A stretch of 53,779 bases of DNA from Blautia sp. (GTDB lineage Bacteria > Bacillota > Clostridia > Lachnospirales > Lachnospiraceae): NCBI GenBank assembly GCA_017463155.1, contig JAFTPT010000047.1, forward strand, positions 1 through 53,779, given 5' to 3'. The position numbers and the translations under genes were made by a program. This document shows, piece by piece, positions 18,996 to 53,779 of this stretch; the first letter of the stretch is position 1; every line of letters begins with the position of its first letter. The notes under the pieces are model-generated. The model searched no databases. It was not told the DNA's origin and worked only from the letters and a program-made list of their open reading frames with translations.

Positions 18996-19835
18996 TCAAA
19001 CCGCAACGATTATTCCGCCGTCGCTGGCGTACAGGCTGCTGACGCCGGCCGTATCGAGCACGATCACCTTGACAGGATTCAGTCTCTCCTCGACTGCGGC
19101 TTTAAGCATCATGGCCCTCTCTCTGCAGTTGCAGTTGGAAATGGCCAGAATCCTGTTCTGACTGTCCGCGGTCCTCTCCACGATAAAGTCAAGCATTTTC
19201 TGGAGAGCCCTGTTCATGCCCCGGGCCTGCCCGAGCTGACAGATACTCCCGATGTCGGTAGAGCCCATGATCGGTTTGATCTTGAGGGCGGTGGCGACGA
19301 TCGCCTTGACGCCGGTAAGCCGTCCGTTCTTGCGGAGGGCATCCAGGCTTTCCAGCACAAAATACGTGTTCATGGAATCGATATACTTCTCGACCGTCTG
19401 CACGATCTTTTCAAACTCCATTCCCTGCTCTTCACACTGACGGATCCGGATCGCGATGAGCGTCTCCCCGATGGAAGCCGACCTGGAATTGAAGACGTGG
19501 ATCTTTCTTTTTCCCTGCTCTTCCTCCAGAAGATTTTTGCCGAGAACCGCGCTGTTGTAGGAGCCGCTGAGCTCCGCTGACAGAGTGACCGCATACACAT
19601 GGTCCGCCTCACAGTCAAATGCCTGCCGGTATCTCTCCGGCGAAGGACATGCTGATCTGGGATATGTCGGCGATGCTGCCACCTTGGCCAGAAACGCTTT
19701 CTGGTCGAAGGTCTCGTCATCTATGATCGTCTCATCTTCCACCATAAGCGTAAGAGGTACTGACTCCATTCTGTCGTCATATTTCCATTCTTCCAGAAGT
19801 TCGCCGCAGCTGTCGAGTACTATCTTAAAACTCAC
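18996..19835 (-). CDS. DegV family fatty-acid-binding protein
   Basis: DegV/FakB proteins hold a fatty acid for phosphorylation by FakA. With the start at the GTG at 19835 (GAGG 8 nt upstream) the protein has 279 residues, the usual family length, and begins with SFKIVLDSCGEL, where the first strand normally starts. The frame stays open to 19871. SPTYPRSACPSPERYRQAF (about 54-72) and VTLSAELSGSYNSA (about 82-95) are the lipid-binding and phosphoryl-site motifs. NSRSASIGE follows near 115. C-terminal domain from about 170. It lies downstream of the Spo0A-like gene with about 84 bp between; they may share a transcript. Confidence 0.88.
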   Translation of the reverse strand: MSFKIVLDSCGELLEEWKYDDRMESVPLTLMVEDETIIDDETFDQKAFLAKVAASPTYPRSACPSPERYRQAFDCEADHVYAVTLSAELSGSYNSAVLGKNLLEEEQGKRKIHVFNSRSASIGETLIAIRIRQCEEQGMEFEKIVQTVEKYIDSMNTYFVLESLDALRKNGRLTGVKAIVATALKIKPIMGSTDIGSICQLGQARGMNRALQKMLDFIVERTADSQNRILAISNCNCRERAMMLKAAVEERLNPVKVIVLDTAGVSSLYASDGGIIVAV

Positions 19836-19918
19836 AATGCCGTCCTCTTTTCCATCAAACATAGTTTTCAATACCGCATTTATCTTACCATAGTGCCTTC
19901 GTTTTGAAAAGAGTTTTT

Positions 19919-20272
19919 TTACTGCCTGGCCCGGGATGCGGCGGACGCTTCCCGCAGATGGAGAATGTAGTAGGACAGGCCGTCCAAAAATTCGTAGTTA
20001 GACGGCATTTTGTGGAGCCGGACGCCCATGACCTCTTCCAGTTTTTCCCGGTTGCTCCGCCAGCAGCTGAGCACCACGGTCCGTATGTTGTGCTCGATGT
20101 TCTGCGGTTTTGACTGGTATTTGGTGGCCAGGATCGGATAGATGTCCTTCGTGATCCTGATCGGTCTCTCCTGGCTCTCCAGTGTCAGTTTGACTGCATC
20201 CGCAACATAATAGTATCCTTTGTATTTTGTCGAAACCCCAAGCTGTCGGATTGTAATGTAGATTTCGTTCAT
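19919..20272 (-). CDS. Orphan Spo0A C-terminal-domain DNA-binding protein (no receiver domain)
   Basis: A 117-residue protein that aligns over nearly its whole length with the effector domain of the sporulation master regulator Spo0A: IRQLGVSTKYKGYYYVADAV corresponds to the first helices, and ITKDIYPILATKYQSKPQNI and EHNIRTVVLSCW to the helix-turn-helix. PSNYEFLDGLSYYI is the C-terminal helix. The N-terminal receiver with its phosphorylatable Asp is wholly missing, so binding should not depend on the phosphorelay. In the recognition helix, residues equivalent to the Glu and an Arg are kept, but a neighbouring Arg is replaced by His and a His by Thr, so specificity may be shifted. ATG at 20272 has AGGAGGT 8 nt upstream; the GTG at 20281 lies inside that site. 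The promoter region carries an array of 0A-like boxes (20361-20440). Confidence 0.85.
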   Translation of the reverse strand: MNEIYITIRQLGVSTKYKGYYYVADAVKLTLESQERPIRITKDIYPILATKYQSKPQNIEHNIRTVVLSCWRSNREKLEEVMGVRLHKMPSNYEFLDGLSYYILHLREASAASRARQ

Positions 20273-20342
20273 GCAAAGCACCTCCTGATTATGACGGGTT
20301 TTTTGTACGAAGAAGAGTTGCCGCTTCTTGTGTACGCAAATT

Positions 20343-20371
20343 ATTATACACTTTTATCAGCAAAAACGAAA
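20343..20371 (-). promoter_or_regulatory. Promoter of the Spo0A-like gene
   Basis: Minus strand: a consensus -10 TATAAT (20343-20348). Seventeen to eighteen bp upstream the sequence is TTTCGT or TTTTCG (20366-20371), a poor -35 that is itself the last, weakest unit of the decamer array. Poor -35 with regulator boxes on top of it is the layout of Spo0A-activated SigA promoters. Confidence 0.65.
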
Positions 20372-20440
20372 AAAATCGAGAAAAATCGAGATTAATCGAC
20401 AGATTTCGACATGTCTCGACATGTTTCGACATGTTTCGAC
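20361..20440 (-). repeat. Array of eight 10-bp 0A-box-like repeats, helically phased
   Basis: Eight consecutive decamers without any gap. Read on the minus strand from 20440: GTCGAAACAT, GTCGAAACAT, GTCGAGACAT, GTCGAAATCT, GTCGATTAAT, CTCGATTTTT, CTCGATTTTT, TTCGTTTTTG. The first seven contain TCGA at the same position; with the preceding T the first four give TGTCGA(A/G)A, close to the Spo0A box TGTCGAA. Similarity falls off steadily towards the promoter. Tandem 0A boxes spaced 10 bp are the known mode of Spo0A dimer binding, but usually two or three, not eight. Confidence 0.9.
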
Positions 20441-20452
20441 TGATTATCTGTG

Positions 20453-20492
20453 CATCAAAAAAGTGCCCCGCTGGCGGGACACTTTTTTGATG
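20453..20492. terminator. Bidirectional terminator after htpG
   Basis: Stem of 18 bp with one mismatch (20453-20470 with 20475-20492), including the A-run and T-run ends, and a 4-nt loop CTGG. It ends the htpG transcript on the minus strand and isolates the downstream array from it. Confidence 0.9.
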
Positions 20493-20512
20493 TATATTCA
20501 TTTCATCTTACT

Positions 20513-22579
20513 TCATTTTGCCAGCTTCAGAAGGATCTCATTGCTTCTCTGGACAAATTTCGTCATTTCCTCCGGTGTCAGCTGCCGGTGGCTGATCATG
20601 GCCAGATCGTACAGCTGCTCGCAGATGATCCCGACGGAGTCTCCCTGCTCCTCCTGAACATATTTGACGAGCGGATGATTCGCGTTCAGGACAAGGGTCT
20701 CCTGACCGCCGAACATGGACGGATCCATTCCGTACATGTTGTACATCTTCATCATGTCCTGCATGCGGCGGCTCTCCTCGGACAGGGTGATCATGGCGGC
20801 CACATTCTCATTTCTGAGGCTTTCGACCTTGACTTCAAGCTTCTCCTTGTTCAGGTATCTACGGAAGATCTCCGTGAGCTTTTCCGCTGTTTTGTTGTCG
20901 GTCTTCTGTTCATCCCGGAGTTCTTCGGTCAGATCCGCATCGATCCGAAGGAAACGGACCTCCGGGTTTTTCTGCTCCAGATGGGAGATGAACGGCGAAT
21001 CGATATGATGCTTCAGGATGACCGCATCCTTGCCGGCCTCGCGGAACAGATTGATATACTGGCTCTGTACGACCTCGTCCGTCACATAGTAAACGGTGGT
21101 CTTCTCCGGTTCCTTTTCATCAGCCTTTTCCTCGGTCTCCCCGGATTCCTCCTTTGTTTCCTCCTCGGCGGTCTCTTCCGGCTTCTCTTCCGTCTTCTTG
21201 TTCTCTTCGATGCAGTCCTTCAGAGTCAGGTATTTGCCATCCAGGTTCTTGAACAGGACATAGTCGCTGATCTTCTCGGCAAACTTATCATCCTTGATGC
21301 AGCCGAACTTGATGAACGGACTGATATCGTCCCAGTATTTCTCGTAGGATTCCCGGTCCGTCTTGCACATGCCGGTCAGCTTGTCCGCCACCTTCTTGGT
21401 GATGTACTCGGAGATCTTCTGCACAAAGCCGTCATTCTGAAGCGCCGATCTTGACACGTTCAGCGGAAGGTCCGGGCAGTCGATCACGCCCTTCAGAAGA
21501 AGCAGGAACTCCGGGATCACTTCCTTGATGTTGTCTGCAATGAAGACCTGATTGTTGTAGAGCTTGATGGTTCCTTCGATCGAATCATACTCTGTATTGA
21601 TCTTCGGGAAATACAGGATGCCCTTCAGGTTGAACGGATAATCCATATTAAGATGGATCCAGAAAAGAGGCTCTTTATAATCCAGGAACACCTTGCGGTA
21701 AAAATCCTTATACTCCTCTTCCGTACAGTCGTTGGGATGCTTGGTCCACAATGGCTTTGTATCGCTCAGGGAGACCGGGCGCTTATTGATCTTGACCCTG
21801 TCTCTCGCGGGAGAGATCTCCACGACCTCCTTCTCCCCGTTCTCGTTTTCTTTTTCCTCGGTCTTTGCCTCCTCATGGATATGCTCAACGACCACATCGT
21901 CATCGCGAAGCTCGGATTCGTCGATGGTCTCATATTCCTGCGGGGCATCCGCCTTGGAGAGGAAGATCTCCACAGGCATAAAGGAGCAGTACTTGCCGAT
22001 GACCTCGCGCATACGGTACTCATTCGAGAATTCAACACTGTTCTCATTCAGGAAAAGCGTGATCTCGGTGCCGACCGTGTTCTTATTGCCGTCCTGGATC
22101 TCATAGTCCGTCCCGCCGTCGCAGGCCCAATGGACGGGAACCGCTCCGTCCCGGTAGGAAAGTGTATCGATGTGAACCTCGTCCGCCACCATGAACGCGG
22201 AGTAGAATCCCAGGCCGAAATGCCCGATCATCTGGTCGTCCGTCGTCTTGTCTTTGTACTTTTCAAGGAATTCCGTTGCCCCCGAAAATGCGATCTGGGT
22301 GATGTATTCCTCGACCTCGTCCGCCGTCATACCGATACCGTTATCGATGAATTTCAGGGTCTTTTCCTCCGGGTTGACAATGACCTCGATCCTGGGCTTA
22401 TACCCTTCCGGGAAAGTATACTCGCCCATGATCTCCAGCTTTTTCAGCTTTGTGATGGCGTCGCACCCGTTGGAGATCATCTCCCTTACGAAGATATCGT
22501 GGTCGGAATAGAGCCACTTCTTTATGATCGGAAATATATTCTCGCTGTTGATAGACAGACTGCCTTTCTTTGCTGCCAT
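20513..22579 (-). CDS. htpG: Molecular chaperone HtpG (bacterial Hsp90)
   Basis: A dimeric ATP-dependent chaperone that remodels client proteins. The 688-residue length is normal. The N-terminal ATPase fold of the GHKL type shows REMISNGCDA (about residue 33), DNGIGMTADEVEEY (about 82) and IGHFGLGFYSAFMVAD (about 120-135). The frame is open a further 99 nt upstream, through the promoter, but AAGGAG with correct spacing marks the ATG at 22579. An acidic insertion in the middle or C-terminal domain (about 490-530, with EEKPEETAEEETKEE) is unusual in bacteria and resembles a charged linker. CIRCE and a near-consensus promoter lie upstream. Confidence 0.96.
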   Translation of the reverse strand: MAAKKGSLSINSENIFPIIKKWLYSDHDIFVREMISNGCDAITKLKKLEIMGEYTFPEGYKPRIEVIVNPEEKTLKFIDNGIGMTADEVEEYITQIAFSGATEFLEKYKDKTTDDQMIGHFGLGFYSAFMVADEVHIDTLSYRDGAVPVHWACDGGTDYEIQDGNKNTVGTEITLFLNENSVEFSNEYRMREVIGKYCSFMPVEIFLSKADAPQEYETIDESELRDDDVVVEHIHEEAKTEEKENENGEKEVVEISPARDRVKINKRPVSLSDTKPLWTKHPNDCTEEEYKDFYRKVFLDYKEPLFWIHLNMDYPFNLKGILYFPKINTEYDSIEGTIKLYNNQVFIADNIKEVIPEFLLLLKGVIDCPDLPLNVSRSALQNDGFVQKISEYITKKVADKLTGMCKTDRESYEKYWDDISPFIKFGCIKDDKFAEKISDYVLFKNLDGKYLTLKDCIEENKKTEEKPEETAEEETKEESGETEEKADEKEPEKTTVYYVTDEVVQSQYINLFREAGKDAVILKHHIDSPFISHLEQKNPEVRFLRIDADLTEELRDEQKTDNKTAEKLTEIFRRYLNKEKLEVKVESLRNENVAAMITLSEESRRMQDMMKMYNMYGMDPSMFGGQETLVLNANHPLVKYVQEEQGDSVGIICEQLYDLAMISHRQLTPEEMTKFVQRSNEILLKLAK

Positions 22580-22631
22580 TGTATCGTCTCCTTCTTTCGG
22601 TTTTGATTGCTGTGTTCCAGCTCTATCGTCT

Positions 22632-22660
22632 ATATTAGTACGCCGGAATGCAAAAGTCAA
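22632..22660 (-). promoter_or_regulatory. htpG promoter
   Basis: Minus strand: -35 TTGACT (22655-22660), 17-bp spacer, -10 TAATAT (22632-22637). This is about 50 bp upstream of the htpG ATG. Confidence 0.8.
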
Positions 22661-22667
22661 GAAAAAA

Positions 22668-22694
22668 CTAGCACTCATTCGAAATGAGTGCTAA
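22668..22694 (-). promoter_or_regulatory. CIRCE element (HrcA operator)
   Basis: TAGCACTC-N9-GAGTGCTA, a perfect 8-bp inverted repeat with the CIRCE spacing (plus-strand 22669-22676 and 22686-22693; only the outermost T/A of the consensus deviates on one side). HrcA represses chaperone genes through this site. Here it ends 7 bp upstream of the -35 rather than overlapping or following the promoter, and it starts 10 bp after the nagA stop. Confidence 0.92.
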
Positions 22695-52570: not shown

Positions 52571-53779
52571 TTATTCTGCTTTTCTGCGTTTCCTCATGCA
52601 ATACAGAAGGATCACAAGTCCACTAAGGCCAAGCAGGAGGATCCACATCTGAATATCCGTTTCATCTCCTGTCCGCACTTCTGTCGTAGAGCTCTTTCCT
52701 CCAACATTGACACTGGATGAATGGCTTGATGCAGACGTTCCGGCCGATCCGGATCCACCTCCGCTTGTGGAAGCCCCCAGAGCAACATTCGCGGTAGAGC
52801 TTCTGGAACCGCCTCCGGATGATGAACTTCCTGAAGAACCTCCATTTGTGGAAATATTGGTACTAAGGTTTAACGAGGAATTATCTGTCTGCGAGTTATT
52901 GCCGCCATTCCCGTTTCCAGACTCATCCTCACCCTGTTCCGTCTGAGACAGCGTATTCGTGATCTTGGTAGTTACATCAAGCACATCGCCATTTGTCTCC
53001 TGGGAGACAAAAGCAGCCTCCCATCTGTACCCATCTGCCTTGGTTTGTTTCAGAGTATACTGAATTGCCTGATTCTTCCCATCGTTGGTGTACAAAGGCA
53101 CATCATTAAATGTGTATTCCCAGCTGCCGTTAATCCCCTGCCTTACAGTTACTTCCTGAACAATCGTATCTCCCTGCATCAGCTTCACGGTCGCTTCTTC
53201 CGGCCTGTTGTCGGATTCATTATCGGAATCCTTCCAGATCACTTCGCCGTGAATCCGCATGTACTTCGGATTTTCATCCACCGGTATTACAATCGGATTC
53301 GTATCTTCGCTCCACTGTGCGGTAAAGGTATGATCTTCGCTTACTGTGTAGGAATCTCCCGGCTGGTACTCCGACCCCTTCCAATACAGGAAGGTATAGC
53401 CTTCTCTGACCGGCTCCTCATGAATCGTAATAACTGTGCCATTCTTATATGTTTCCACGATGTCGGCAGTGCTGTTGTTGTAAGAACCACCGTTCAGATT
53501 ATATGTAATACTGTAAGTTGCCTCTTCTGGATCACTCGGTGTTCCTGTCACGCCCGGTTCCGGCGTCACCGTCGGTTCAGGTGTTCCTGTCACGCCCGGT
53601 TCTGGTGTTACCGTCGGCTCAGGTGTTCCTGTCGGCTCTCCTGTCACGCCCGGTTCAGGCGTTACCGTCGGCTCAGGTGTTCCTGTCGGCTCTCCTGTCA
53701 CGCCCGGTTCTGGTGTTACCGTCGGCTCAGGTGTTCCTGTCGGCTCTCCTGTCACGCCCGGTTCCGGCGCCACCGTCGG
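52571..53779 (-). CDS. Surface adhesin, C-terminal part (5' end outside the window)
   Basis: 402 residues are visible, and the frame runs open to the right edge, so the start is beyond it. The first about 85 residues are Thr/Pro/Glu/Val/Gly repeats (unit PEPTVTPEPGVTGEPTGT). A beta-grasp InlB B-repeat-like module (NLNGGSYNNS, EGYTFLYWKG, HTFTAQWSE) follows, then a Cna-B domain (MRIHGEVIWKDSDN to VTTKITNTL). A Ser/Gly/Asn-rich linker leads to VRTGDETD, a hydrophobic span (IQMWILLLGLSGLVILLY) and CMRKRRKAE. It should be covalently or membrane-anchored and exposed. The tail again has TGD without a proper LPXTG. Confidence 0.85.
   Translation of the reverse strand, partial: PTVAPEPGVTGEPTGTPEPTVTPEPGVTGEPTGTPEPTVTPEPGVTGEPTGTPEPTVTPEPGVTGTPEPTVTPEPGVTGTPSDPEEATYSITYNLNGGSYNNSTADIVETYKNGTVITIHEEPVREGYTFLYWKGSEYQPGDSYTVSEDHTFTAQWSEDTNPIVIPVDENPKYMRIHGEVIWKDSDNESDNRPEEATVKLMQGDTIVQEVTVRQGINGSWEYTFNDVPLYTNDGKNQAIQYTLKQTKADGYRWEAAFVSQETNGDVLDVTTKITNTLSQTEQGEDESGNGNGGNNSQTDNSSLNLSTNISTNGGSSGSSSSGGGSRSSTANVALGASTSGGGSGSAGTSASSHSSSVNVGGKSSTTEVRTGDETDIQMWILLLGLSGLVILLYCMRKRRKAE
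53537..53779. repeat. Tandem repeat region encoding the Pro/Thr-rich stalk
   Basis: Units of 54 bp (18 codons) repeat at least three times, with shorter 42-bp units (14 codons, lacking GEPT) at the left. Units differ by only a few bases, so copy number can change by recombination or slippage. The array continues past the right edge. Confidence 0.9.

Follow-up and report, generated by a model that had tools for sequence, protein, structure and literature searches.

A promoter-anchored, 10-bp-phased array of 0A-like boxes ahead of an orphan Spo0A effector-domain gene in Blautia sp.

Here we describe, in a stretch of 53,779 nucleotides from Blautia sp. (the window), an array of eight 0A-like boxes spaced 10 bp apart ahead of a gene encoding a Spo0A-type effector domain without a receiver, referred to here as the orphan (Table 1). 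The array is real, anchored to its promoter and partly conserved among relatives. We think it fairly probable that its boxes act as 0A boxes bound cooperatively by Spo0A-type effector domains, and that it forms part of an auto- and cross-regulated circuit of the orphan and spo0A. Binding to the array, the identity of the binder (the orphan protein, Spo0A or both), cooperativity, a filament and the sign of regulation are what we infer from the comparisons given below, in which genomes are numbered and G000 is that of the window.

Table 1. Location of the array, its promoter, the neighbouring genes and the related genes elsewhere in the genome set
Feature	Location	Strand	Basis or remark
Orphan Spo0A_C gene, product of 117 aa without receiver	19919..20272	-	Pfam match
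htpG (Hsp90), upstream neighbour	20513..22678	-	Pfam match
DegV family gene, downstream neighbour	18996..19871	-	Pfam match
Eight 10-bp-phased 0A-like boxes (7 x TCGA, 1 x TCGT)	20365..20441	-	Pattern positions and Tandem Repeats Finder
-10 hexamer TATAAT of the orphan promoter	20348-20343	-	Without consensus -35
Inverted repeat, terminator-like, between htpG and array	20455..20492		By eye
spo0A, receiver truncated, 215 aa, three phased TCGA upstream	L101:1627-2274 (G000 C6)		Adjoins recN-like frame (by eye)
SigE/SigK-like sigma gene, 0A-like boxes upstream	L123:1590-2246		141.9 bits, below the SigE cut-off of 339

On the minus strand, seven TCGA units have their 5' ends at 20439, 20429, 20419, 20409, 20399, 20389 and 20379, followed by a TCGT at 20369, the step from box to box being exactly 10 bp throughout. 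Counted from the first base of the -10 hexamer, the CGA cores lie at -90, -80, -70, -60, -50, -40 and -30, and the C of the TCGT at -20. From the distal end towards the promoter, the boxes read AGTCGAA, TGTCGAA, TGTCGAG, TGTCGAA, TGTCGAT, TCTCGAT, TCTCGAT and TTTCGTT. The 0A core is TGTCGAA, with contacts at G2, C4 and G5, according to PMC3485338. The window boxes match this core at 6, 7, 6, 7, 6, 5, 5 and 4 of its seven positions; two of the eight are exact, all eight retain C4 and G5, and five retain G2, with one of the three boxes that lack G2 also lacking the A of CGA. The resemblance to 0A boxes and the decay towards the promoter, both proposed in the initial annotation, are thus borne out. 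Its description of eight exactly phased decamers, each with a CGA core, holds for the spacing and for the seven TCGA units; the eighth unit, although in phase, lacks the A of CGA, and three of the four distal units read TGTCGAA or TGTCGAG, the outermost being AGTCGAA. Known Spo0A targets carry pairs of boxes 10 bp apart. The helical repeat of B-DNA is 10.5 bp, and seven steps of 10.0 bp fall, by arithmetic, about 3.5 bp short of the corresponding turns, so that the single helical face that had been proposed is an approximation.

The array reaches the -35 position of the TATAAT promoter, as had been noted earlier, and covers it; a good -35 hexamer is absent, and the best candidate matches at only 3/6 positions. 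The orphan promoter, which has no -35 match, went uncalled in a promoter scan of 19880-20560. Likewise, a terminator scan called none at the inverted repeat between htpG and the array, perhaps because of a T run inside the stem, and an Rfam scan of the window returned one tRNA and nothing else. Elsewhere in the window, tandem repeat units of 54, 42 and 18 bp occupy 53538-53779 up to the window end, perhaps as a repetitive coding stretch.

The longest run of TCGA at 10-bp steps is 7 in the window, compared to 3 in 300 dinucleotide shuffles of the window (3 being reached in 5/300). When all lags from 5 to 30 bp were compared, the real sequence gave its next longest runs at lag 20 (4 units) and lag 30 (3 units), both multiples of 10. 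A chance repeat was rejected because the shuffles never reach the real run length. A functionless repeat that arose by chance or by replication slippage of a decamer, to which we give hardly any credence, would account for the identity of decamer units 1-2 and 6-7 in the window and for a 30-bp internal duplication in the array of G039. It is opposed by the shuffles, by the common register of arrays built from different units, and by the site specificity of runs of four units, which is presented below. Tandem Repeats Finder reports the window array as two period-10 blocks. On average, array units agree at 6.9/10 positions in the window and at 7.8 in G039, compared to 6.4 when units of the window are set against those of G039. 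Judging from the identical adjacent units and the duplication in G039, the arrays probably expanded in part by tandem duplication, and there is a weak suggestion in the sequences that those of the window and of G039 are separate expansions on a common register.

We examined the register in the orphan promoters of relatives. After removal of duplicates and of sequences shorter than 150 bp, 66 upstream regions were kept, of which 44 could be anchored at the -10 when scores under 6 were excluded (42 without the window and G039), and 22/66 had no clear -10. In the 64 other unique upstream regions, 27 CGA pairs occurred at lag 10, compared to about 3 per lag in shuffles, and there was an excess also at lags 20, 30 and 40 as well as 18 and 28. 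With the -10 as anchor, CGA peaks fall at -80, -70, -60, -50, -40 and -30, with a proximal peak at -22 (window and G039 included). Among the CGA cores between -100 and -25 of the 42 other promoters, 52/76 are in the phase of the window, against a mean of 8.0 and a maximum of 28 in 20000 rotations. At least one phased core was present in 24 of these promoters, at least two in 21, and none in 18. The signal was retained after thinning to <70% protein identity (12/23, P about 1e-4) and was weak after thinning to <60% (5/14; P 0.048 for phase 0 and 0.39 for any phase).

A lack of the 10-bp register in relatives that keep the gene would have refuted the proposal of the initial annotation; in this comparison the proposal was supported in part, the register being kept in 24/42 orphan promoters and missing from the remainder. 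With the exception of these 18 promoters, and weakly so below 60% identity, the boxes lie at a fixed distance from the -10 across relatives, and a general lack of conserved register where the gene is kept, as expected of a functionless repeat, was not what we observed among orphan promoters. The spacing of the array is probably not accidental because part of the family has the same spacing, and the array is probably a genuine control element rather than a chance repeat. The orphan of G039, only 42% identical to that of the window, is preceded by CGA at the same seven positions, -90 to -30, in units of different sequence; long orphan arrays were present in these two genomes only. The choice of G or C at box position 2 might follow the recognition helix of the orphan. 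A -35 with at least 5/6 matches was found in only 2/44 anchored orphan promoters. GTCGTA at the -10 recurs in orphan promoters (for example L010 and L014; TGTCGTATAAT in several). In 28 anchored promoters the -10 is thus directly adjoined by a core resembling that of 0A boxes; this count of TCG at -2 is biased because the anchor score favoured TCG ahead of the -10, with -25 to -100 unaffected.

A different explanation would be that phased A/T tracts bend the promoter DNA and that TCGA is a mere spacer between them. The promoter-near units of the window indeed contain T5 runs in phase, and A/T tracts are mildly phased in relatives. However, the share in one phase among the 42 relatives was 0.68 for CGA, compared to 0.26 for AAAA and 0.25 for TTTT, and TGTCGA-type pairs elsewhere often have no long A tracts between them, in a search that itself required the core. 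With CGA phasing far above that of AAAA and TTTT, A-tract curvature was rejected as the primary signal, and we consider this explanation very unlikely.

The gene downstream of the array encodes a Spo0A effector domain alone, in agreement with its first reading. The orphan protein matches Pfam PF08769 (Spo0A_C) with 92.9 bits against a gathering threshold of 25 (E 1.4e-26; residues 6-103, profile positions 3-104 of 104), and this is its sole Pfam domain; by eye, AGGAGG stands 8 nt ahead of the ATG. It scores below the cut-off of TIGR02875 (Spo0A), with 51.5 bits against 200 and only positions 152-248 of 262 aligned, and this was also its sole match in NCBIfam at E 0.01, where no dedicated family was found. 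PDB sequence matches were limited to two, 1FC3 and 1LQ1, both Spo0A chains. Among the titles and abstract openings surveyed in the literature, we found neither an array of this kind nor the orphan family described.

A relatives search with the orphan protein gave a match in 105/116 genomes, ordinary Spo0A included, and short orphan-type frames were found in at least 55/63 other genomes labelled as the same genus, among the matches listed. G012 has six Spo0A_C matches among those listed, five of them orphan-type and two near each other on C19. Ten loci examined from this search include some of Blautia sp. and Frisingicoccus caecimuris. In 54/75 orphan rows htpG lies upstream on the same strand, and in 49/75 a DegV match lies downstream, duplicates included; these rows repeat the same loci from two collections, the window's own locus twice, and some loci end at contig or fetch ends, where neighbours can be missed.

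The only Spo0A_C match in the window's genome besides the orphan is the truncated Spo0A, in which the receiver matches Response_reg at positions 1-49 of 111 (21.8 bits, under the cut-off of 30.2). Three consecutive TCGA-N6 units (the triple) occur at three places in this genome, namely the orphan promoter, the spo0A promoter and a GC-rich stretch within a long open frame, compared to 0 for the reversed pattern. The triple is present in 13/67 genomes; it was placed at spo0A, orphan or sigma promoters in G000, G002, G026 and G039, and few sites were examined in the other nine (G003, G004, G006, G015, G022, G024, G075, G088 and G096). Within 41 same-genus genomes, the triple was found in 10 (26 hits) and the reversed control in 6 (7 hits a strand). 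Four consecutive units (the quadruple) were found at six sites in five of 64 same-genus genomes, and the control at 0 in all 64. Two sites are at the orphan (G000, G039), two at spo0A (G039, G063) and one at a sigma gene of SigE/K-like type (G061), which places 5/6 ahead of a Spo0A_C gene or such a sigma gene; the sixth, in G006, precedes the gene of a surface-type protein that has no match in Pfam. The quadruple is more specific than the triple for promoters of the spo0A family and sigma genes. At these sites, the Spo0A of G063 has a full receiver and scores 223.9 bits against the TIGR02875 cut-off of 200, and the best match of the sigma factor of G061 is SigE (128.6 bits, below the cut-off of 339).

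Triples also precede the sigma gene in G002, G026 and G039, the genes being taken as the same on the basis of best SigE matches and similar neighbours by eye, and in G002 by eye only. The array is retained at the sigma gene in G002 and at both spo0A and the sigma gene in G026, and in both genomes the orphan is without one; therefore, an array at the orphan is not obligatory. The promoters of spo0A and sigma genes have a register of their own at -57/-58, -67/-68 and -77/-78, extending from -117 to -57 in G063. In full-length spo0A upstream regions with TATAAT (18/20 fetched), a box is at -68 in 14, at -58 in 13 and at -54 in 10. Because this register starts at about -57/-58 and continues upstream, its forward boxes stop before they reach the -35, in contrast to the arrays at orphan promoters, which overlap that position.

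A search for paired TSTCGA boxes in the window's genome listed 6 hits per strand direction, compared to 1 for the control. Box pairs precede the SigE/K-like sigma gene, where the exact pair is on the opposite strand, and a gene encoding a type IV prepilin peptidase. They also precede a gene whose product, a signal peptidase resembling SipW, scores above the TIGR02228 cut-off and is accompanied by a matrix-type protein of the SipW-dependent kind; a further pair was found on C43, close to the end of a contig. At L126:1501-3002, two TGTCGA pairs 40 bp apart place four cores in one 10-bp register ahead of the SipW-like peptidase and a TasA/BsaA-like gene.

These additional sites bear on the identity of the binder. 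That the orphan protein alone binds the array and regulates its own gene, as the initial annotation proposed, appears unlikely to us. Its gene adjoins the array, and phase-locked cores recur ahead of orphan genes, but phased boxes are also present at spo0A, sigma, sipW/tasA-like and prepilin-peptidase genes, which would suit Spo0A. We see more merit in the proposal, against which we nevertheless lean, that only Spo0A, receiver-truncated here, binds the array, with the orphan as a target under its control that may compete with it or act as a specialised effector. The Spo0A of G000 keeps a Spo0A-like recognition helix (TTGPRVERGIRHAIE). This helix is S-R-V-E-R-A-I-R-H in 18/20 Spo0A proteins, the exceptions being G000 (PRVERGIRH) and G026 (PRVERAIRH), and N-[VI]-E-H-[DN]-I-R-T in 46/66 distinct orphans. 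Binding by Spo0A only would also agree with the closeness of most distal window boxes to the 0A core, and with G002 and G026, where arrays are kept at spo0A or sigma genes. By contrast, seven orphan, four spo0A and three forward sigma units of G039 have C at position 2 (CTCGA) despite a Spo0A helix of SRVERAIRH, and the longest array is ahead of the orphan in both G000 and G039 (ahead of spo0A in G063). Two reverse boxes at the sigma gene of G039 read TGTCGAA.

SpoIVA was not found in G000, an incomplete assembly. Spo0A-type frames of 210-242 aa are also present, among the matches listed, in G002, G017, G018, G026, G039 and G048, and SpoIVA was not found in these incomplete assemblies either; it was missing from 9/42 other same-genus genomes tested (assemblies incomplete). 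Sporulation was likely lost in the lineage of G000 and of the genomes with a short Spo0A. In PMC8340488, presence of spo0A and the sporulation signature agree in 98.9% of genomes (1343/1358), and 15 genomes with spo0A fall into clusters that score low; the lineage described here would be a further example. It is possible that the SigE/K-like sigma gene was repurposed after the loss of sporulation.

In the cooperative array that we favour, Spo0A-type effector domains would bind side by side, one decamer per box, and the array would control the orphan gene within an auto- and cross-regulated pair of orphan and spo0A. The distal boxes, being strong, would be occupied before the weaker ones near the promoter; a loaded array would bring sigma-A RNA polymerase to the -10, and saturation over the -35 could act as a brake. 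We lean slightly towards activation, which is the likeliest sign because there is no usable -35, as would fit polymerase contact. Under the positional rule given in PMC4168254, boxes over the -35 and by the -10 fit repression, and repression would therefore suit the array as well. Lacking a receiver, the orphan might be set by its own concentration, by analogy with the isolated effector domain of Spo0A, which binds without phosphorylation (PMC3485338). The same paper describes multiple shifted species with a spo0A promoter and binding of Spo0A ahead of its own gene.

More speculatively, and with considerable doubt on our part, the Spo0A circuit could have been rebuilt with receiver control no longer complete, in a lineage in which sporulation is apparently lost. 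The receiver-less orphan and the receiver-truncated Spo0A would then form concentration-driven filaments on phased arrays at their own and SigE/K-like sigma promoters, and would direct genes for matrix fibres and pili rather than spore formation. With a graded series of up to eight sites, the array is a natural ruler by which the cooperation of tandem Spo0A effector domains could be tested without phosphorylation as a confounder, and it suggests how a sporulation master switch gets re-used once sporulation is lost.

The array shares with the 0A boxes of Bacillus and Clostridioides, as portrayed in PMC3485338, the TGTCGAA core, exact in two of its eight boxes, and the DNA-binding domain family. 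It differs from these in its eight contiguous decamers in one register and in preceding a gene whose product has no receiver. By comparison with Spo0A as modelled by TIGR02875, the orphan has the C-terminal effector domain too, but is without the receiver and comprises 117 aa, compared to 262 model positions. Transcription of B. subtilis spo0A switches between the promoters Pv and Ps. In 18/44 anchored orphan promoters there is a second upstream promoter (TTGACA-17/18-TATnCT) with the boxes downstream of it, whereas the window shows the proximal promoter only; a promoter switch is thus possible in those relatives that carry the second upstream promoter.
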